Origin: Eunapius fragilis
Taxonomy: Eukaryota; Porifera; Demospongiae; Spongillida; Spongillidae
Direction of reading: 5' to 3'
Assembly (NCBI GenBank): GCA_963681505.1
Contig: OY811980.1
Coordinates: forward strand, 5,978,626-6,042,625
Length of the DNA stretch: 64,000 nt
Position numbers and translations under genes: made by a program. A model generated the notes under the pieces. The model saw nothing but the letters and a program-made list of their open reading frames with translations, searched no databases and had not been told where the DNA came from. Below are positions 3,235-48,000 of this stretch, piece after piece (the first letter of the stretch is position 1; every line of letters starts with the position of its first letter).

Positions 3235-4197
3235 ATGTCCATAAGAGAATGACGTCACATACCCACTAATTAACCAAGTATGTTCCGCATCATTGGGGAA
3301 AATTCTTTGGGATTGGCGTAATATACATGCATGCGTAATATAAAAATGGTACTGAATATATAAGGGCTCAATTTGTCGTAGGAATCGCGATTCAAAAATC
3401 TCAGTCAAGAGGTAACAATTGATTATATAGGACGTTGTGCCACGTTATATAGCCGCATATATTAGTCGTTATGTACTAGTTTGCTTTTTTAATAGGCTAT
3501 TATAAGGACACAGAAACTCGTTCAGAGGCTTCCTGAATTTAAAGATATATGGCGTACAAACCACTTCGTTTCCACTGCCATCAAGCCATTTATATATATG
3601 GTAAGCGATGAAAAACTATTTGTTAAGACATATTTTAACGTTCGAGCGTTATGCGCCTATCATTATTACGTGAGACCCCCCCCCCCCCCCCCCCCCGGGG
3701 CGAAGTCAGGATTAGGTGGGATTTGACGGGTATTACTAATATGAGGAACGGAACGGAACGTTTGCTGAGCGTTCCGTTCCGTTCCGCATACTAAAATGCG
3801 GAACGTCTATGCAGTTTTTTTTAAGCCTACTCAAATAACCCAGTATGAGCCACATAGAATGGAGCTGATTAAATTTGTATGCGCTCCCTCCTCCCCTCCT
3901 CCTGCCTCCTGCTCGCTCCTCATCCCTCCTGCTACCTCATTTTAACTCTTCATCAGATACACATACATCACTTTGGGAAAGCAAGTATTATGTAGAATAT
4001 TAAATTTGACACACAACTTGCACAACCCAACCATGTATGCCATGGTGAAACTGTTGTATATTGCAAGGGGACATACATGTGTGCCATGGGATACAATATT
4101 TCTATAAAGACCCGTTTTACACATCAGGTCCTCAACTAATTCATAGATAAACTACTTAACTTGCCAAAAGTCGTTTGGGTTGGCTTGCTTACACAGC

Positions 4198-7090: not shown

Positions 7091-7926
7091 TTAGGCCCCT
7101 TTTTACTACAATATCAAGTTCAAAAAAAAAAATCAAATGTTATGGAGTAATGTGCCAAAATTGTAATAACCTACTTAATAAATATATATGATCCTGAATC
7201 TCAATAACTTTATGCAAGTTAAGTAACTTACTATTAAAATCGTTTACTGTAAGTACTGATTGGTCCACCTCATGTCATATCTTAGAAAACGTCACTGATT
7301 TAAATTATGGGGGAAAATAAACTTGCATTACAAATATTTACCTGTCATTGTATTTTATATTAAGTGGTAACTATACTCAAGCTTTTGCCATCATATCCAC
7401 CCTGAATACAAGTGTGTTAGTGGGAGCATTATTTCTGTGTGTTTGTTTGTGCATGTGTTTCTGTGCGTTTGTTGTGCATGTGTGCATATTTATGTATTTT
7501 TGTGCATTGTGTGTGTATGTATGTGAACGACAGACCCACGTGTAGCAAATCACTATCAATGGTTATAAAAATGATCTAAATACAAGTCTATTATTTGAAT
7601 AAATTCACGATTGATTATTTCCTTAATTCTCCTAGTTTGCTTATGTAATGAGCTGGTGTATTATATGTATACTATCATGGAATAGGTTTACATCAGATCT
7701 GTAAGCAAAGAATTCAGTTGGAGTAGCTTGTGAGCATGCAATTGGCACATTGTTATGCATATTGGCGTAAGACATAGTTGCAGTATATTAACTGCAATTC
7801 AATTGCAACAGCATACAACATATGCATAGGCAGGGAAGGAATACATCAGCTAGCATTTTACCCCTACTTATGTAATACATTTTTGCTAATTCCAAACATT
7901 AATTTCGGATTCACATTTCCCCACAG

Positions 7927-10900
7927 TACCTGGAGCACCATTCAGTTTTGCCGCCACTGTGCTCAACTCTACGGCCATCTTTGTCTCTTGGACACCCCCA
8001 TCTGTCACTAATGGCACCATCATGAAATATGACTTCTTTTATGCTAACAGTACGGATTGCTTTAATGGTACAAATCAATCCATCATTACTGTGCCAGACC
8101 AGACAGCATTCAATATCACACTCATTGATTTGCTGGCATACACAAACTACTCATTGTGTGTGCAAGCTGTATCTGAGGCTGGTCCTGGGAACTTCACTTC
8201 CATCACTGTCACAACATATCCAGACATTTCTTCTCCTCCAACTGGTTTTAACTTCACATCTTTCAATTCTACGTCCACCATTCTAACATGGTGGTATCCA
8301 ACCACTCCAAGAGGTCTCATACAAGGATACCTAATTGTCTACAATGCATCAGTGATGGAAATCATGGAGAACATTACAATATCAACTACTGACATGGGGA
8401 TACAGAATTATACCATCCATGGCCTGACACCACACTCAGTGTACAACATTTCTGTGAGGGCTTATAGTTTTCATCCTGGTATGAATGGTCCGCTGTACGG
8501 AGAGTACTCTGCGCTAATTATTAGCACTGCAGACGGCTGTGAGTAGTGTGATGCATGCACACATGCACGTGATGGGTGCTTTGCAAAACATTGGTAGTTC
8601 TCTGTTGCCTCCAAAGATATGTGTGCTGCCCAGCAAAATCACTGTATTGGGATTATACTTTTATCACTACAACAATTGTAGATTATTTAAATCAATATGT
8701 CTTTGCAACCTGACGGCACTTTTTGTTTAGATCTCTTAAAACTCTTGCTATGGAAACTTATTGTAGTTCTCAAGATATTATTGTTGTTATTAATAACATA
8801 TTTTCAGGTACAAGTGGTTGTGTGATTACGTAACATACACTTTTTATACTGACAAATTTATAACCACAAAAGGATGATTCTGCTAGACTCTGCGCCACAT
8901 GAAAAATACAATAACCACACGCTCACGATTATCGAGTGCTAGTTTCGTGAAATCAAATATGATCTATTTATGCATGATGAGTACTACATAAGAATACATT
9001 TTAAATTTATACAAAAATGCTTGGTATAATATCAATACAATATCGGAAGTCTCGCTAGAGACTTCCATATAGGTTTTGACCCCGACTATGAATTTAATTA
9101 AAATCACGCGACCCTACCGTAGCTTCGCTCCCGACGATCGGATCGTCTAACTTGTTGCGGCAATCGATCTAGAAGTCAAAACTGAGTAGTTTCGTTTTTG
9201 TTTCACGTCGTAGAACCGCGTGGTTGTCGAGAACGAAAAATACTGCCGTCCTCGTACCCCTTCCAAAAATAATGGGCGGGTCGTCTGCTTCTGCTTCATC
9301 TTCTTCTTCTTCTTCTTCTTGAGAACTCATAACTCGGGACAGGAACACTTTTAAGCAATGAAAATTGCACCAATAGCTTTAGAATTTGCTGGAGGACTCG
9401 CTTTCATGCAAAAACGCCTAAAAGCCTACATACGGTCTTACCAATTCTAATTAAGCAAAGGTACCTAGAAAATTTTCACAATACGTCTGGATGGAATTAA
9501 ATCGGTTAAATGAAAGGGGGGAAACCTGCGATGCAACAGTGATTTGGGTGTTAAAAAAATTAAGGAAACAAGTAAATTAAAACATTCTCTCTGAGAAAGT
9601 TGGTGGGATATAGGTTTTTCAGGCAAATAGTATACTGGTGTAAAAAGCAAGGAAACAAGTTTCATCAGAAGGGAAAATGTAATAGTTCTATATTTAGCAC
9701 AGAAACAGCATATGCCTTAGTCGAAGTGTGCTAAATATAGGACTATTACATTTTCCCTTCTGATGAAACTTGTTTCCTTGCTTTTTATACCAGTATACTA
9801 TTTGCCTGAAAAACCTATATCCCACCAACTTTCTCAGAGAGAATGTTTTTATTTACTTGTGGAGCCAGGCCAGCCAATCATATGAATGCGTAATTACAGT
9901 GTGAAGTAGCTAGCAAAATGTTGCTGTCCGCACCATGTTGTACAACGTTTTGTGAGTGCTGCACAGCGGTTGCTTAGAAGTCCCAATCTGTCACAAATGG
10001 CAATGCCATCGTCATCCTTTAAGACTGCTTTACACTTAACAGTGCTAAATGCATTGAGGGTATAAGTCCATCAGGCTAGATATGTTAAAACACATTGATT
10101 TGCTGGTATATACTGATTTGCAAGCATCAGCTGGGATCTTCTCTTCAATGCCTATATCAGAACACCTGATATCCAGATCTCGCTCCTCCAACAGCTTTTA
10201 GTGCCACATGTTTAAACTCTATATCCATCACTTTAACATAGAGATATCCAGCATCACAATGTCCCATACATAATACAATAGCAACTACTAACACAGGGGT
10301 ACAGAATTATACCATCTGTGGCCTGACACCCTGCACAGTGTACAACATTTCTGTGAGGACATATAATTTCATCCTGGTCTACTGTATGGAGAGCACTCTA
10401 AGTAATTGTTCATTTTTAGTGCATCACACATCCATGAGTGGTGTGGTGCATGCACACATATGGTACATGCATCAACTATATTATACAGTTCATCAGCACA
10501 AATGTGCACACTTGCCTATCAACAGTTGTAGTGGGTGCCTTCTTCTGAATATTATAATGGTTTGTATTACACCAGGATTCAACATTTTCATGAATCCTCT
10601 TGTTATATCTAGGTATATCTCAATGAATATTAAAGTAGTAAAGAGATTATGTCGTACTTTAATGTATAACTTTCTCTGTGCATTTCCACAGTACCCTCAA
10701 TGCCGCTAAACTTCCAGCTCTCTGCAGTCACATCCAGTGTCCTTAGGGCCAACTGGACACCTCCATCCTCACCCAATGGGATTGTGACAGGCTACACAGT
10801 GTACTGCACAGTATCACAGAACCAGACCTATCCTGAACAGGTGCCAACTGGTGCTTCTACCTATACTGTCTTCAATGAGACCAGTCAGACTTCTGTATAC

Positions 10901-11962
10901 CTGAGTGGCCTTCTTCCATTCACATTCTACCAGTGTTATGTCACTGCTAACACTAGTGCTGGTGAAGGAAATCCCTCAGATACCAACACTACACAAACCA
11001 ATCAGGCAGGTAAGTATCAAGTATTTTGTACATTTACACACATTATTGATATTACAGTTCATACAGTACTCTCCTAACTGCATAGGGCAGCCAACAGATA
11101 TGTAAAAATAGGGTGGGGGACTAGGGAATGGTAAGGGAAAATGGTCCTGAATGTTCCATTTCCACTATGTTCCTGTTTTCTTAATCCCTAATTTTAAATA
11201 CCCCAAGACTTTATGGCAATTTTCCTTGCAGTTCCATCACTACCTCTGAACATCTCTCTGTCTTCCATTGCTGCCTCACCATCGCAGCTGTCTGCTAGTT
11301 GGTCTGTACCCATACCTAGGAATGGTATCATCACTGGTTACTCTGTGTACTGTAACACTTCTGCTAATCAAACATATCCAGAGCAAATGATTGGATCAAA
11401 TGTTCCCACCATTAGATCTGTAGTGAATGGGACAACACTGGCTGCTACACTGACTGGACTAAGTCCATACACACAATATAGTTGTTATATAGCTGCTAAT
11501 ACATCAGTGGGACAGGGGAGCCCTTCAGCTATACTCACAGCTCTAAGTGCTCAGTCAGGTAACTTGTATTCTTGCTTTAAATTACATGTAAATCCATGCT
11601 AGGGCATTGCTCACGCTCATATGTATTAATATTATGTTACAACTGATCAATCAAGATTTATTCATTTTCAGTTCCATCATCACCTCAGAACTTCTCTCTG
11701 TCTCCTGTTGCTGGTTCACCATCTCAGCTGTCTGCTAGTTGGTCTGTACCCATACCTAGGAATGGTATCATCACTGGTTACTCTGTGTACTGTAACACTT
11801 CTGCTAATCAAACATATCCAGAGCAAATGATTGGATCAAATGTTCCCACCATTAGATCTGTAGTGAATGGGACAACACTGGCTGCTACACTGACTGGACT
11901 AAGTCCATACACACAATATAGTTGTTATATAACTGCTAATACATCAGTGGGACAGGGGAGCA
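7927..11962 (+). CDS. Fibronectin type III repeat protein (partial, five FN3 domains)
   Basis: The four exons 7927-8538, 10692-11009, 11232-11558 and 11672-about 11962 each start after a good acceptor in the phase 1 typical of shuffled FN3 modules. The first exon encodes two FN3 domains and the others one each. FN3 signatures include 'FVSWTPP', 'TVYCTVS', 'LTGLSPYTQYSCYI' and 'NTSAGEG'. Dense N-x-S/T sequons suggest a glycosylated extracellular region. I find no start codon, signal peptide, membrane segment or stop belonging to it. The last exon loses homology at 11962, where its near-identical sister exon continues, so its 3' end is truncated. It may be the middle of a larger receptor or adhesion protein, or a decaying duplicate. 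Confidence 0.75.
9050..9330. other. Possible MITE-like insertion with (TTC)n
   Basis: This part of the large FN3 intron differs in texture from its surroundings. It has several CpG-rich blocks (for example 'cccgacgatcggatcgtc') and a short (ttc)n run near 9300-9320. I could not define termini, so the element call is weak. Confidence 0.25.
9568..9860. mobile_element. Complete hairpin (foldback) MITE
   Basis: Two arms of about 130 bp (9568-9699 and 9728-9860) are almost perfect inverse complements around a loop of about 28 bp. The outer ends are 'acaagtaaat' and 'atttacttgt'. It sits in the large intron of the FN3 gene. It has no coding capacity and must rely on another element for movement. 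A truncated sister is at 620-808, and a related hairpin at 20219-20523 shares the motifs 'aaggaaacaag' and 'gtgctaaat'. Confidence 0.9.
9985..10400 (+). pseudogene. Degenerate duplicate FN3 exon
   Basis: This stretch aligns collinearly with the two-domain exon at 7980-8510. Shared landmarks are 'ccatctgtcac', 'aacagtgctaa', 'attgatttgctgg', 'cagaattataccatc', 'ggcctgacacc' and 'gtgtacaacatttctgtgag'. Indels and stops break the frame throughout. It is an old exon duplication within the FN3 gene that has decayed inside the intron. Confidence 0.8.
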
Positions 11963-12212
11963 TTATTAACTTCACGGCTACCTGTAATTGCATTACCAAA
12001 TATTTCCAAGTACATTTTTACATCCATGTGATCTGTAATGAGAGGTTGCTAAATATAAAATTTTGAACGAGGGTATAGAACTATGAATGCATGCATGCTC
12101 GCATTTTCCAATTCAAGGTCGGTATGTCACGGAGGAAACCAATGAGACGCTCGATCCCGCCATCTTACGCTACTACAATGAGTGAATCTGTTTATTGGTG
12201 TTAACTGAATAG

Positions 12213-30879: not shown

Positions 30880-31145
30880 CTCTTGCGTATAAATCAGCCT
30901 GTCCGTGTTTTTTAACGACGAAAATGATACTTCGCCATAATATATGGGACAAATTGTGTCAAGTTTATTAAAATGTTCTCCGTTTGAATCTTTATCTTAA
31001 ATGCGTTCAATTGGATAAACGGTATTCCCCAATACTTCATCGGGCCATGCCTACAATAAAGTAATTAAGGTTCTGGAACAAATAAAGAGCGTTACCTCTA
31101 GGCGTTCAAAGCTGAAATATCTTTTCTGCAGGATTGTTCAATGGG
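30880..31145. mobile_element. Relic related to an arm of the 46.1 kb foldback element
   Basis: Collinear short matches to 46135-46350 are visible: 'cgaaaatg.tacttcg', 'gtttgaatc..tat', 'aaagagcgttacc.c.aggcgttcaaa' and 'tatcttttctgcag'. It ends about 110 bp upstream of the gene starting at 31256. It is degenerate, and no opposite arm was found nearby. Confidence 0.5.
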
Positions 31146-38193: not shown

Positions 38194-41100
38194 GTCACTT
38201 GTTACTTGTCATTTATGTCGTTGGGGGGGTGGAGGGAGGCACCTGTGCTGTATTAACTAGGGCCCATGTTTTATGATCATCCCATGCCAAAAAAAAAAAA
38301 ATTTGGGAGGGGGTGGGGGGAGTTGATGGGGAAATTGTTACCAGTGCTAGATATAGTCCTTCGTTGTCGAACATGACATTACAATATTAGACACGCAGTC
38401 CAAGTGTTTGTACTGTTGTCACACTAGCTTGCTCCCCAGGTTGGGAATATGAATTGCAACCTTTGTTTGTGTTCCTTCATCTGGGGCCCATATCTGTATT
38501 TGTAGGAATCAACTGCTGGTCCACTTCCTGTACTTCATGTGGTCAGGGTAATTAGATTGGGCCTTTATGCAATCACACAGCAGCCCTGTTTAGGGGGCAG
38601 GGCCTCAGGGATGTGTCCTGTAGGAGGCGGGGCTTCAGGGGTGTGTCTGGTGGGGGGGGGGGCACAGCCTATAATCTTTGGTTGACAAGTACCTAAATAA
38701 AGTAACTCTAGAGAGTGGTAATCTTAGGGTTAAGGCCCATCAGTATGATGACACCCATAGGGTCGACCAAGTCATCTTCGGATCTCACCCAGCACTCTGA
38801 AAAGATTTGGGGGGGGGGGGGGGGTGAATTTTGTTGGACAATCACAGCCTTCTCACACATCCTGTATATCCAGCACCATTACTGTACTTTTAATGGCTTG
38901 TGTTTTGCAACTCTTGAGGGGTTAATTGCATATCTCTCCCCCATCTCTGTCATTCATTTCCTTGTTAGGTTATGTGGTTTTATACCAGATGTGTGTGTGT
39001 GTGTGTGTGTGTTGTACAGGCCATGTGCTCTGTCATAATCAACCCTGTTGTTGTGCATATGTACATGTAGGGGCATAGTGACACCTTGTACACACGGGTG
39101 TGCACCTAAGGACATAGGGGAACACTGGTGTGTAGCTAGGGGGTATAGGGGAACACTGGTGTGTAGCTAGGGGCAAAAGGGGAACACTGGTGTGTACCTA
39201 GGGACATATGGGAACACTGGTGTGTAGCTAGGGGGCATAGGGGAACACTTGTTTGTATCTAGCTAGGGGCATAGGGGAACACTGGTGTGTACCTAGGGAC
39301 ATAGGGGAACACTGGTGTGTAGCTAGGGGGCATAGGGGAACACTTGTTTGTATCTAGCTAGGGGCATAGGGGAACACTGGTGTGTACCTAGGGGCATAGG
39401 AAACACTGGTGCATGCCTTGGTTTGATTGCCCTACATTCCCATTGCTTAGGGCCACCTGTCGTTCCTCCAAGGGAAAGAGATAGGGACAGTAGTAGCAGC
39501 ATCAGTTTGTCACAGTCATCTCACACTCTTTATTCTTCATCCTCGTCAGCATTTAATGTGCCAGGCAGACCAACCTGTGAGTTGTTGTGAGGTAACGTAT
39601 GCAGTGACATACATTGTTATGATTCACGGCAAAATTTTTATCACGTTTGTATACATATAAAGATGCTGTCAGTTGCAGAATGATTAACAGTATCGGCTTC
39701 CTATTGTCAAACACACCACACCATGTATAGAATTTATTAATTTTTTACTTACATCCCCTCTCTGTATTGATCATATAAAGGGCATCACCTCTTGGGGGGG
39801 GGGGGGGGGGGTGGTTCAATATCCTTCTGTAGGAGTGTGCGAATCACCTGGAGGGGTACTGTTGCTATTGATTTGTCCTGTTTGTTACTTTTACTTAACT
39901 TGTTGCGAAGATATTGCTGTGAAAAGTGCGTGCACTGATTTGGTGCTAATGATTTAGGACACAGTGTGCCTAAGTTATTGGTGTGAAATGACCGGGAAAT
40001 GTACAATTACTTTGCACAGCTGTATCAGATTATATAAAAATAAATAAACAGAACAAATCACAGTCGGTCCAGGACTCCTTTACATACATACCAAATTTAG
40101 GGAACACCCAGGACTATGGAAAGATATATCCCAAAGGGGTAATGTCTGTAACAGTCTGTGTACGGTAGGAAGTGGAACTAACGTAGGGAAGAAATCCTAG
40201 CGTAGAGGAAGAGGTGTGGCATGGTGTGTTGCAAATAGGAGACCGAAACAGTTAATCCAGAGAGCATTTTTTATGCTTAGAGATATATAAATGAGACAAA
40301 GTTCTGTCTTAAACTGTTCCTTACATGCATGCACATACATATCTCCACACACTGCCTCTCCCCATACACTGTCCCTTTCCCCAACTACCCGTTCACCCAC
40401 ACACTGCCTCTCTCCCCAACTACCCCTGTTCACACACAGAACTGCCTCTCTCCCCAACTACCCCTGTTCACCCACACACTGCCTCTCCAACTACCTCTGT
40501 TCATCCACACGCTGCCTCACCCCTGTTCACCCACACACTGCCTCTCTCCCCAGCTACCCTGTTCACCCACACTGCCTCTCCTCAACTACCCCTGTTCACA
40601 CACACACTCCTCTCTCCCCAACTACTCGTTCATACACACACTGTCTCTCTCCCCAACTACCCCTGTTCACCCACACACTGCACCCCTGTTCACCCACACA
40701 CTGCACCCCTGTTCACCCACACACTCCTCTCTTTCCAACTACCCGTTCACCCACACACTGCACCCCTGTTCACCCACACACTCCTCTCTCCCCAACTACC
40801 CCTGTTCACACACACACTCCTCTCTCCCACTACCCCTGTTCACCCCACACACTGCCTCTCTCCCCAACTACCCCTGTTCACACACACACTCCTCTCTCCC
40901 ACTACCCCTGTTCACCCCACACACTGCCTCTCTCCCCAACTACCCCTGTTCACCCACACACTGCCTCTCTCCCCAACTTCACTGTGCATGTATGCACAGT
41001 AGTCTACCGGTGAAGGTATCCTCCCCACCAAATAAGATTCACAGGATTAAGTAATACTAATGAGCATTGAAAAGCAAACACATACTGGGCCCCAAACCCA

Positions 41101-44100
41101 GATGGAGGTGCTTACAGCATTCCCCTCAAGCCCCTAGAATTTTTTATGGGTACTTGTGGCTTTGTGTTATGGGGAATTGAATACCAGGGAATGTACATTC
41201 GTACTGTGCTAACATACCTGCTGGAATATTAACGTGTTGTCGATAACGTTGAGGTAAAAACTATAGTTTTTAACAGCACACACGTTCATTGAAGTGGCAC
41301 CCCCTTATTTGTAGTGTTAAGCAACCCACTGCATATTGGAGCTGTTTATATAAAGTAGTTTAGCTTTGCTACTTAAGTCACAACTCTAAAGGTGATGGTG
41401 TAACACTGAATTTTATCAAAATTCTAGTATGATATCAGTAAACCACTGAAAATATAATTGGATTCATTGAGTTGCGTGCAACATTGTTGTTATTAAGCAT
41501 CATTTTAATTAATTAGTACCGTCCTATAATCTTATCTATTTTGACTGTTGAGAGCAAAACCTCATTGCTGGCTTCCACATTCTGAAAGCAGTGCACCTAT
41601 TTAAATATCTGCCATGTCTGTGAGCTGTATGTGTGTAAATGTCTTCTATTGCTTTGGCCAATATACTAACATTGACCCTATTGTGATGTCAGCCTTCAAT
41701 CTTCATTACCAACCTCTTACCTCATACCCTACTTAACATTCTGTTATTAAATGAATTCTGCTATTATTGTTGATCTCAAAATTTGACAATGGTACTGGAG
41801 GTCTCACTGTGTGGACTTGTATGTCTTCACTCGGGTGAACCTTAAGCAGTTGCACCTCAAAATTAGCCTTGGCACTGTATACATAAGGTATGTGTCTAAA
41901 CATAGACACTTAAGCCTTCATACCCTATGGAGGAGGTGGTCTTGACACCACAAGCTGTTCTCTTTTGGGAGCTGTTTGTGCTTTGCTTGTTGGAAATCAG
42001 CATTTTTATTCAGCAGTGCTTGTAGTGAATGTGTCTGATTTCTTTACTGAGTGGGAGTATATTCAGATGTCATTAGGGGTTATTGGTTACGTTGTATAAG
42101 TTTCCTGGCACTGGAGTGGCACCTAAGAAATTGTAGTTTTGGGATTGAACAGAATGGTATAAAGTTTTCTGGCCAGTGATGGACTATAGGCAGATGCAAG
42201 CCATGGTGCTGTAAGCTGTTTGTTCATACAAAGGAAGAAAAAAAAAAACTCCAAAAGTTGTTAATTAGGTCGCAGGTTATTATATCTCTTGGTTGATTTT
42301 CACCTCTGGGCAAATTCTAAGTGTTTTACTGTTTACCATGGTTTCCGTGTACTCATTTCTTTTTCATCTTTCCTTATTCCTTTTACATCTGCAGTGCAAA
42401 GGCAGAGTACTGATCCTAGTCGTAAGTTATCAGAGCCTCAGTGATAGTGCGGTTGTAGTGTATCTTGTGTGGTAGTTGCTTGAGGTGGGTGTGGTCAGGC
42501 CATGGTCTACAATAGTACTGTGATGTTGAGCCTAACCATGTGAACTGCATTGCTGGTACAAACTGCTAATATATTCCTAGCTTTGTTGAATAGTTCCAAG
42601 TTGTCTTGGAGAAATTCAGCGTGACTGCCTGGTTCATGCATGGATTAGTATGCATACATTATGTGGGAACTTAGTACATATGCATATAAATCTGGTTCCT
42701 AGAGGAAAAACAGTTAACTCTGATGCATGCTTTCAACTTGCCAGTACACAGACATTGGGTAGTATGGTTATAGAAGCCAACTGAACTGTCCAGGAATGCA
42801 GAGCATCTAGGCCTCCAGATGGCAGGAGTTAATAATGTTCTGTTACATCACTCATCAGCGTAGAAGTAATGTTCAGTTGTAGTGTAAGCCACAGCAGTTG
42901 AGACGTGTGTCTGTGGTATAAGTGATGGTACAGGTGATGGTACAGGGGTGGAGTTAGGTGATGGTACAGGGATGAAGTTTAGGTGATGGTACAGGGGTGG
43001 AGTTAGGTGATGGTACAGGGGTGGAGTTAGGTGATGGTACAGGGATGAAGTTTAGGTGATGGTACAGGGGTGGAGTTAGGTGATGGTACAGGGGTGGAGT
43101 TAGGTGATGGTACAGGGGTGGAGTTTAGGTGATGGTACAGGGATGAAGTTTAGGTGATGGTACAGGGATGGAGTTAGGTGATGGTACAGGGGTGGAGTTA
43201 GGTGATGGTACAGGGATGGAGTTTGGTGATGGTACAGGGATGGAGTTAGGTGATGGTACAGGGGTGGAGTTAGGTGATGGTACAGGGATAGAGTTAGGTG
43301 ATGGTACAGGGGTGGAGTTAGGTGATGGTACAGGGATGGAGTTTGGTGATGGTACAGGGATGGAGTTAGGTGTTGGTACAGGGGTGGAGTTAGGTGGCAT
43401 GGTGGTCACCTCATTGTAGTTTACTATCAAACCCATATATATATATATATGTGATCGAGGCAGACCTAGCACATATTTCATATTCTAACAGAAACTTATG
43501 TCCTCTACAAATTCTTTCTTACGCACTGGGGATAAGTCTGTCCATCATGGAGTTACAGTGGCCTGAATTTTTAATTACATGTGCATTTTTTTAATTGCAT
43601 GCGTCAACTTTGATGCTCCATCCTGAAATTTTTTTATAATATGCGCTGGATAGATCCCTTTTTCACTGACTCGACCCCATATATTATTTTTCAGCATCAT
43701 CCTTCACACCACCACCACCTCTACCCGAGCGCCCTGTGAGGAGCAGAAGGCTAACAGGAGCTACTCCCACTCAAGGACCCAGCAGCAGGCTGGCCAATGT
43801 CTCTCCAACGCCTGGTGGGTCGACCAGTGACTACATCCAGACCCCACCCCTTCAGCCTTCACAACGCACGGCCCCTCCTCACAAGACCAGTGGCCAGAAC
43901 CTGGAGGAACAGGACTGGTATTGGGGCAGTGTTTCTAAGTAAGGATTTGTTTTTAACCCTTCTAACACTGTAGGGTTCTTTTTTTTTTTTAAGAGGTGGG
44001 TAGGTGAGGGGGCAATATTCAAGAGGGGGTAGGAGAGTAAGGTGAGGGGGGCAATATTCAAGAGGGGGTAGGAGAGTAAGGTGAGGGGGGCAATATTCAA

Positions 44101-44926
44101 GAGGGGGTAGGAGAGTAAGGTGAGGGGGGCAATATTCAAGAGGGGGTAGGAGAGTAAGGTGAAGGGGGCAATATTCAAGAGGGGGTAGGAGAGTGAGGTG
44201 AGGGGGGCAATATTCAAGAGGGGGTAGGAGAGTAAGGTGAGGGGGGGGTAATATTCAAGAGGGGTAGGAGAGTAAGGTGAGGGGGACAATATTCAAGAGG
44301 GGGTAGGAGAGTGAGGTGAGGGGGGCAATATTCAAGAGGGGGTAGGAGAGTGAGGTGAGGGGGACAATATTCAAGAGGGGGTAGGAGAGTAAGGTGAAGG
44401 GGGCAATATTCAAGAGGGGGTAGGAGAGTAAGGTGAGGGGGGCAATATCTTGCGCATGTAATTATTGGTTCAAAGCTTGCTCATACGATGTATGGGTTAC
44501 CAACCATCCAGGGAAGATGTCACTTATCACATGAAGGATGCACCTGAGGGGTCTTTCCTTGTCAGAGATGCAGCCAGGGTATCTGGTTACTACACCCTTA
44601 CTCTAAAGTGAGTTGAACTGTGTTTACTGAATTATGATGCTTAGTGGTTACATGGTAATGCGTGCGTGTATTATTATGAAGCAATCACTGAAACAAAAAA
44701 TAGTTCTGTCAATGTGTGTTTATTTCCTATGTAGGAAAGGTGGTGTCAACCGTCTGATTCGAATCATTCATCGAGATGGTCTGTATGGATTTGCTGAGCC
44801 TCTGGAGTATAATTCGGTTGTGGATCTGATCAATTACTATCGAGAGAACACCATGGCACCTTATAGTCCAAAACTGGATATCACATTGGTAAAGGGGCTG
44901 TCCAGGCGTGAGCTGCTGGGCCAAGT

Positions 44927-45006
<80 letters not shown>

Positions 45007-48000
45007 ATACAATGAAATTTTAAATTCCAAAATTTTCAAGATCTGGTCTTGGTAAATTAATTCCATTTAGTGGGATCTTCAGGAATGCTGAAAAAAATCT
45101 CCCCAGTTGAGTTGTGCATAAGTCATGTGTATATTCTGTCTATGTAGCAAGACCAAGATGAGAATACTGAGGAGATGGTGTTGGAGAGTCTGAAGGACAT
45201 TGAGAAGCAGCTAAGAGAAAAAAATCGAAAGTACAATGAGCTGCAACAACAGTGTAGTACAACGAACGAGGTGAGTGAAGGGTAGGGAGGGGGTGTCTCC
45301 CTATGAAGGGTAGGGAGGGGGTGTCTCCCTGTGAAGGGTAGGGAGGGGGTATCTCCCTATGAAGGGTAGGGAGGGGTATCTTCCTATGAAGGGTAGGGAG
45401 GGGGTATCTCCCTATAAAGGACAGGGAGGGGGTATCTCCCTATGAAGGGTAGGGAGGGGGTATCTCACTATGAAGGGTAAGGAGGGGGTATCTCCCTATG
45501 AAGGGTAGGGAGGGGGTATCTCCCTATGAAGGGTAGGGAGGGGGTATCTCACTATGAAGGGTAAGGAGGGGGTATCTCACTATGAAGGGTAGGGAGGGGG
45601 TATCTCCCTATAAAGGACAGGGAGGGGGTATCTCACTATGAAGGGTAGGGAGGGGGTATCTCACTATGAAGGGCAGGGAGGGGGTATCTCACTATGAAGG
45701 GCAGGGAGGGTCCCTATGAAGGGCAGGGAGGGTCCCTATGAAGGGCAGGGAGGGGGTATCTCACAGTGAAGGGCAGGGAGGTATCTCACAGTGAAGGGCA
45801 GGGGTTCCATAAAGATCAGCAGATATGTCTTTATAGGAAATCAAAGCTTTGAGATTGAACCTTGAAGCCCAGAAATCAGTGGTGACCATAATGGAAGAAC
45901 ATGCAGCTGATCAGGAAAAGTACCATCCCGATGTTACTGGACAAGAGCGAACTGCGTGAGTGTGCCACTGTGTGGAAAGCATCTCATAGACAGCTACAGG
46001 GTTATAAAATAAAGGGGTGTAATATACTTGCCCAGCTGTATTTTTTAAACAAATGGTAGACGCTAAAGTCCCGTTGCTTAACTCCATTAGCTAGTGTGAA
46101 CAACCCAAAGCAATTTGAAGCATGTGGGACAGTTCACACGAAAATGTCGTATCGTGATATATAATTTCAATGCTCTTTGTTTGAATCGCTATAACTTCCG
46201 AATGATTAAAGCTACCGGGGTACTATTTGCAGCAAATCCTACCACACCATTTCTCTATGGCATATTTTATTTCTGTCCCTTTGGTCCTCTCCGTATGGCA
46301 CATACAAAGGACGTTACCCCCAGGGGTTCAAAACTTAAATACCCTTCTACAAGTGGGACCCAATCGCTTCAAAATCAGTACATACATATAAGTGTCCTGT
46401 CGCTATTGATTCGTCCTGTTCAATAATTTTTACTCTATCCATTGTGAAGATATAGCTGTGTGAAGTGCGTGCACATTTTCCCGCTTGATTCCTGCCAATG
46501 ATTTAGACGAATTGTGTCCTATCAAATGGGTATTGAAAGCATACCATTGCAACTGCGATTGTTTGAGCTTAGCTGATAGCCTGAATTGCATGAGCACAAA
46601 TAGCTTCCATTGGTGTTGGTGCACACTTGCAAACAGTTTCCATTTAGCAGTGAACATTCGTTGATATCTAAGGTGGAATATGTTACAACCAGTGTTGATG
46701 CAAATATGTGGGCTCACCAATGCAAGTGCTGTTATCTGATGCAAGCATGTAGCCAGAAGAAGTACATGAGCATAAATGGCTTCCATTGGTGTTGGGCGCA
46801 ATTTCCATTTTGCTGCATTCATCGATATCTGCATCATGCAGAACCATTTTAATGTGTGGGAGACAGATGTGTAAATCATTGGCAGGAATCAAGCGGGAAA
46901 ATGTGCACGCACTTCACACAGCTATATCTTCACAATGGATAGAGTAAAAATTATCGAACAGGACGAATCAGGACACTTATATGTATGTACTGATTTTGAA
47001 GTGATTGGGTCTCCCTTGTAGAAGGGTATTTAAGTTTTGAACCCCTGGGGGTAGCGCCCTTTGTATGTGCCATACTGAGAGGACCAAAGGGACAGAAATA
47101 AAATATGCCATAGAGAAATGGTGTGAATGAATGTGTTGCAGATAATAATTTGGTGGCATTAATGGTTCGGAAGTTATAGTGATACGACATTTTCGTGTGA
47201 GCTGTCCCTGTTTGATGAAATAATTTTTATTAATTTGCCGTTAAAATGTGTACCCAATGCACAACAGTTATTTGTACCATCATCCACACATACTGTTACA
47301 ACCACGTAGCTGACAAAATATACATCGATAACCACGCCTCTTTAAAATATATATTTTTAGCCTCATGCAGAATTTCGAGTTGCTGAAGCGGAGGACAAAG
47401 GCGCAGAAAGATCAGTTACAGGAAATTCAAGATTGTGTTCGAAGAAAAGAGATTGACAAAAATTTTAAGGAGTCTGATGTCAACAACCTCAAACCAGAGA
47501 TTAAACAGCTCCAATCAGAAAAGGGCAGCAAGATGAGGTTTGTGCTGGAGTGAAGCCGAATTAATACACACAAACAAAATCCGACAGTACTATTGTCATG
47601 ATAAAAGCCATTACTGAAACAGTGTCTCAAGGCGTGTGGTAAATTTAATCCAGATGTTATAAGCCTGTGTATCCTAAGGACAATGTGGTTTAATGTTCAC
47701 CTACCTCCCTCTCTTTCTTTCTCAAACCCCCCCCCCCCCCCCCCCCCCCTCAATCTCGCACATTCACTCTCTCAGATGGCTGAACCAGCGTGGGTGGGAC
47801 CAGAGTCGTCTCAACGACATCTTAGAGGCAGTCGATGAAGATGGGAACCAGGACGAAGCCCTATATGCTACCTACGCCATGCTGCACACCTACAGGGACG
47901 AGTAAGGGACCCTCCTCCCTAAACCTTTGACCCTCCTCCCTAAACCTTAGTCATCTGGTGTGGGAGGAAGTGGGGCAGTGATTGTCCTGAAAGGGCACGT

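Follow-up and report, generated by a model that had tools for sequence, protein, structure and literature searches.

A foldback DNA element at 46126-47208 of the window (the whole 64,000-nt stretch that was analysed, C10:5978626-6042625) carries a 324-nt copy of part of an EGF-array gene, placed exactly at the centre of its hairpin. The copied piece comprises two phase 1-1 EGF exons and the intron between them, and its donor lies ~850 kb away on the same contig (C10). The element fits a single-copy Pack-TIR, a class known in animals; the interest of this one is its EGF cargo. The cargo was probably captured in place, by break repair or template switching, in an element residing inside an intron of the PI3K p85-like host gene. 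The features of the element and its host gene are listed below.

45837..45955, plus strand: host exon, PI3K p85-like inter-SH2 region, preceding the element-bearing intron
46122..46125, plus strand: candidate left target-site duplication ATGT, imperfect (right side TGTT), from flank comparison
46126-47208: foldback DNA element, whole, with inverted-repeat arms
46126..46528, plus strand: left arm as far as the inner breakpoint (403 nt), ending in the 28 bp GGGACAGTTCACACGAAAATGTCGTATC, from inverted-repeat comparison
46519..46528, plus strand: left junction CTATCAAATG, made up of element sequence and agreeing with the donor at 8 of 10 letters; AATG recurs at the right junction
46529..46852, minus strand: 324-nt segment captured from the donor, C10:5175223-5175560 (L009:4724-5061, 338 nt), from alignment
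46545..46667, minus strand: EGF_CA exon B, phase 1-1, 123 nt, with six cysteines and a donor site of its own, GTATGC
46668..46717, minus strand: captured GT-AG intron, 50 nt (52 nt in the donor), from alignment
46718..46828, minus strand: EGF exon A, phase 1-1, 111 nt, has lost cysteines 2 and 3 and retains its splice sites
46853..47208, minus strand: right arm, from inverted-repeat comparison; AA at 46851-46852 is common to donor and element
47361..47537, plus strand: next host exon, p85-like inter-SH2 region

A first-pass annotation of the window had described a foldback, Pack-type element, and this description was borne out when the two arms were compared. Three inverted-repeat blocks were recovered: 46126-46153/47181-47208 (96% complementary), 46185-46399/46969-47183 (89%) and 46407-46508/46869-46970 (98%). 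Overall, 314 of 340 aligned arm bases (92%) were identical, a likeness far beyond chance. The flanks of the cargo include the 28-bp ends, which are matched across the family; for a Pack-TIR, each flank has to cover at least 10 bp of the terminal inverted repeats (Tan et al. 2021). Likeness was 96% within the inner 120 aligned arm bases and 90% beyond them. Reading this contrast as arm homogenisation left by the capture was considered and rejected, the same contrast being present in L029 (98/88) and L047 (97/89), two family copies without cargo.

The genome (a 219-Mb assembly in 24 contigs) was searched with the cargo alone, and the best 40 of 69 candidates were scored. The best match elsewhere was C10:5175213-5175560 (462 bits, 89% with gaps counted); the next best reached 132 bits at 72%, leaving a unique best parent among the candidates scored. 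The donor EGF gene that the first-pass annotation had proposed to look for therefore exists, the copied part being C10:5175223-5175560. Over the captured 324 nt, intron included, 305 of 321 aligned bases were identical (95.0%), with 20 gap columns. Parental identity for a Pack-TIR is set at 90% or more by BLAT; the values here are 89% by blastn with gaps counted and 95.0% of aligned bases. The copy has 96% of the length of its parent (324 versus 338 nt), within the 80-120% range used for the class.

The donor locus (L009, 10 kb) contains 21 EGF exons recognised by a regular expression that includes the splice sites. Of these, 16 measure 123 nt, and 49-327 nt separate neighbouring recognised exons. 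The captured exons are neighbours in this array, being copies of L009:4915-5037 and L009:4740-4862. The direction of copying was from gene to element, since the donor exons belong to a long array of similar exons that has no arms. To exclude segmental duplication, the Pack-TIR criteria require that no TE lie in the 100 bp flanking the parent. Comparison of the family arms with the 10-kb donor locus returned seven matches, 15-20 nt in length (best E 0.035), in a screen that covered the family arms only. Because the intron was kept in the copy, where its 50 nt align to the 52-nt donor intron, capture took place at the DNA level and not through spliced RNA; the cargo is not a retrocopy. Elsewhere in the array, two adjoining EGF exons (L009:7418-7540 and 7592-7714) are identical in sequence, which points to recent conversion or tandem duplication of exons.

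The two splice-ready, phase 1-1 exons and the 50-nt GT-AG intron reported earlier were confirmed in coordinates and splice sites, with AG preceding and GT following each exon. Exon B (translation INECSLLNGNCLQVCTNTNGSYLCSCNSGYQLSSNNRSCN) had been credited with all six cysteines and its own donor site; it retains both and scored 40.2 bits against Pfam EGF_CA (cut-off 27). Exon A scored 18.2 bits, under the cut-off. Its loss of two cysteines, also noted earlier, is accounted for by deletions of 4 and 11 nt relative to the donor (cysteines 2 and 3), and a 3-nt insertion is present as well; the frame is kept. Exon B differs from the donor by four synonymous changes and one replacement change. Selection on the cargo is not claimed, these changes being too few and not separated into those of the copy and those of the donor.

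The hairpin centre of the window copy was aligned with those of 13 relatives. In six of the 13, ATCAAATG occupies the centre in the same orientation, four (L026, L029, L036 and L047) read its reverse complement, and three (L041, L048 and L050) have a variant. The centre in relatives such as L034 reads TGTCCTATCAAATGTATGGGAGG. In the window copy, the sequence across the junctions is ...TGTCCTATCAAATG/GGTATTGAAAG ... CCATTTTAA/TGTGTGGGAG..., with a slash at each junction. With the empty relatives as reference, the 324-nt insert splits the hairpin centre exactly, no element sequence is missing from the window copy relative to these relatives, and AATG stands on both sides of the insert. Strictly taken, the left junction is blunt; its 8-of-10 match to the donor is reached at 23 of 19,982 donor-locus positions. 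At the right junction, AA (46851-46852) is common to donor and element.

The following course of events would explain all of these features and is the probable one. A palindromic foldback copy would already have been present in the p85-like intron when a break or a stalled fork arose at its hairpin centre. Repair would then have copied ~338 bp from the EGF-array gene lying 850 kb off on that chromosome, and rejoining into the element would have produced the single-copy Pack-TIR. The element would thus have come first and the cargo second, through template switching or gap-filling repair in place. The same-chromosome donor, microhomology, internal breakpoints and small gap are marks of single-copy Pack-TIRs as described by Tan et al. 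2021 (PMC8277862). Against in-place capture stand the donor distance of 850 kb, the blunt left junction and the imperfect target duplication.

Alternatively, the cargo could have been captured elsewhere by fork stalling and template switching, the loaded element then transposing into the p85-like intron. In its favour, the element ends are intact and a partial target duplication (ATGT/TGT) is visible, and in the same study the donors of multicopy, transposed cases are distant (PMC8277862). This course is unlikely, however: the target duplication is imperfect, the frames scanned contain no family transposase (see below), and one loaded copy was seen among the sampled loci, a count that rests on the best 40 of 1187 whole-element candidates and the best 40 of 69 cargo candidates. 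In-place filling is favoured over capture followed by transposition because loaded copies number just one so far and the element has lost none of its sequence.

Dispersal of the arms, which the first-pass annotation had asserted from relics within the window, was borne out across the assembly, so that the arms do not occur only here. A pattern search with the terminal 28 bp (up to 3 mismatches) returned 68 forward and 90 reverse matches; the reversed control pattern returned zero in the same search. With the whole element as query, a DNA search yielded 1187 first-look candidates, and the best 40 of these were scored. The family sample, which is not a census, comprised 52 loci (L025-L076): 40 short copies and single arms (L025-L064), 10 large relatives and two more. 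The short copies measured are ~650-800 bp long, with two arms that join at a spacer-poor centre. In one family copy, L054 (C16:1216200-1218500), 37-nt blocks recur every 40 nt within the arms on both sides. Two relics of family arms lie in the window itself.

39818..40098, strand not assigned: relic of a family arm, matching many family copies
31074..31141, strand not assigned: weaker relic of a family arm, best match 79% over 67 nt at 31075-31141

The first of these extends a relic previously placed at 39818-39965. The second had been placed at 30880-31145; a match to the family arm was recovered there, but it is weaker, and all matches found fall inside 30965-31141. At 3650-3730, 47 nt at 83% and 56 nt at 80% match the first kb of L074, possibly a further relic.

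The large relatives (6.1-9.3 kb; for example C8:2657882-2665865) have the 28-bp end type of the family, and many lie within TA repeats. Nine of the 10 were delimited at both ends, at 6.1-8.7 kb. Self-comparison of four revealed three giant palindromes, L066, L067 and L072, whose arms measure 1.9-2.8 kb and are 91-99% alike; the fourth, L074 (9.3 kb), ends in 466-nt arms at 99% and contains more inverted repeats internally. No transposase or other Pfam match at E 0.01 was obtained in six frames of L074 (1000-9002), and none was obtained in three plus-strand frames of L066 or in one frame plus one open frame of L072. The foldback copy in the window is apparently non-autonomous.

Flanking 4-mers were identical in 10 of the 15 copies with placed ends, eight being ATAT and two AATT (L025 and L067); the ATAT flanks lie mostly in TA repeats and are uninformative as target duplications. 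The window copy has the non-identical flanks ATGT/TGTT. Target-site duplications are marked on individual cases in Tan et al. 2021 (PMC8277862), outside the Pack-TIR criteria listed there. In L067 (C1:864800-872400), the 15 bases beyond each end are perfect reverse complements (ttataactattaatt / aattaatagttataa), which suggests a palindromic target with AATT at its centre.

The host gene is read from the plus strand, and the cargo exons are antisense to it. For the p85-like host peptide, the best of the 38 relatives listed was eukprot Em0779g2a (79% identity over 57% of the query), the 'Em' of which presumably denotes Ephydatia muelleri gene models. E. muelleri is a freshwater sponge (Spongillida), and from this one hit the source of the window is probably a demosponge. 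The host exon ends at 45955 after two codon bases, and the intron is therefore of phase 2. Being antisense in a phase-2 intron, the cargo exons are unable to join the p85-like transcript, and even a flipped phase 1-1 exon would break the frame there. They probably have no function at this site. Two minisatellites were also observed nearby, one just ahead of the SH2 exon (44002-44448, 39-nt units) and one between p85-like exons (45276-45781, 28-nt units). An array of fibronectin type III-like exons was seen by eye from open frames at 7890-12066.

The first-pass annotation had further proposed that the family could serve as a physical vehicle in the shuffling of EGF exons, and had suggested testing whether its copies share the EGF cargo. 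The cargo was found in 0 of the 52 other family loci fetched (L025-L076, a sample), and beyond the window copy the proposal is unsupported. In its strong form, under which the family actively delivers 1-1 EGF exons to the introns of extracellular genes, it draws on the symmetric 1-1 exons with intact splice sites, on a complete EGF_CA domain in exon B and on the dispersal of the family. It draws also on the expectation that a fragment would hold two complete exons at just 5% of positions. This figure was obtained by sliding a 339-nt window along the donor array (4861 positions), where at least one complete splice-ready EGF exon was contained in 75% of windows and two in 5%. A single captured 1-1 module accordingly needs no special targeting, since 75% of donor windows already hold one; the capture of two complete exons was somewhat lucky.

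Further points stand against the vehicle. The host intron is antisense and of phase 2, and exon A has decayed. When a library of the short copies was compared with eight EGF loci, a single 19-nt match was returned, at the outer end of the L031 cut-out; these loci overlap and represent three places, all on C10, among EGF clusters that were also listed on C1, C2, C4, C5, C16, C17 and more of C10. The strong form is accordingly very improbable. It is likewise highly doubtful that foldback elements repeatedly captured 1-1 EGF exons and delivered some of them to extracellular genes by sense insertion into phase-1 introns. As far as the sequence can tell, nothing speaks for onward passing or for use of the captured exons.

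Other inserts were encountered among the family copies. At least 80 nt uncovered by the family library lies between family-matching stretches in 12 of 40 loci (L025-L064), and two of these 12 flagged inserts were searched. The L061 insert is a repeat with 43 genome matches besides itself, and the L049 insert has five partial matches besides itself at 74-77%. In the split copies, the L075 insert is a repeat present in several other loci of the sample, and the L076 insert is repetitive (73 matches, two of them its own locus). From these nucleotide matches, none of the four looks like gene cargo.

An ordinary nested or overlapping EGF gene, whose intron has inverted repeats by chance, would account for the intact splice sites and was rejected as extremely improbable, for the family centre flanks the insert on both sides, a donor of 95.0% identity lies on the same contig, and a six-frame regular-expression scan of the window (six-cysteine spacing or a D/N-I/V-D/N-EC start) recovered no other EGF-like exon beyond the arms, its one other match, at 2845-2958 on the plus strand, being without that start. 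Misassembly of donor sequence into the element, which has no direct support, is equally remote, since differences from the donor at 16 of 321 aligned bases, together with several indels, mark an independent, aged copy.

Shuffling of phase 1-1 modules has mostly been deduced from its end products. In one genome-scale study, insertion of exons into introns accounts for <10% of high-confidence domain gains, and direct examples of mechanism are reported to be still rare (PMC2926785). In the present element, the donor, the carrier and the junctions of a capture can all be read, and acceptor, intron and donor sites are intact in a mobile element; it is a clear snapshot of the first step of exon shuffling. 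An array gene of mostly 123-nt exons, with introns often of ~50 nt, easily yields splice-ready units (3 in 4 windows), and EGF-array genes thereby offer modular exons to any process that captures fragments. The idea of a vehicle can now be tested by scans of this and related genomes.

Pack-TIRs have already been described in animals, and gap filling was proposed for most single-copy cases (Tan et al. 2021, PMC8277862). Of those single-copy cases, 59.8% are reported with a same-chromosome donor and 67.6% with microhomology, along with small gaps and internal breakpoints (PMC8277862). The element in the window is similar in being a TIR element with a short host segment, a same-chromosome donor, microhomology, an internal breakpoint and an intron kept in the copy. 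It differs in its cargo of two phase 1-1 EGF exons and in a donor 850 kb off, where 56.9% of the reported cases lie ≤15 kb from theirs; the median captured size given is 224 bp, against 324 here (PMC8277862). The terms EGF, sponge and Amphimedon are absent from the main text of that paper, in which foldback papers are cited (PMC8277862). The Pack-TYPE elements of plants are likewise TIR elements with gene fragments, but of other superfamilies (PMC8903248). A soybean CACTA element also captured gene fragments, in a plant and in another superfamily, and the title of its report refers to novel exon combinations made by splicing (PMC1947982).

Among the open-access literature matches listed, no paper was titled for a transposon carrying EGF exons. 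The FB element of Drosophila is presumably a foldback element. Ssk-FB4, an FB4 Pack-TIR of Drosophila, resembles the element in the window in having captured host gene sequence and in a 2-bp AA microhomology at one breakpoint, whereas it is multicopy, transcribed and probably functional (PMC8277862).
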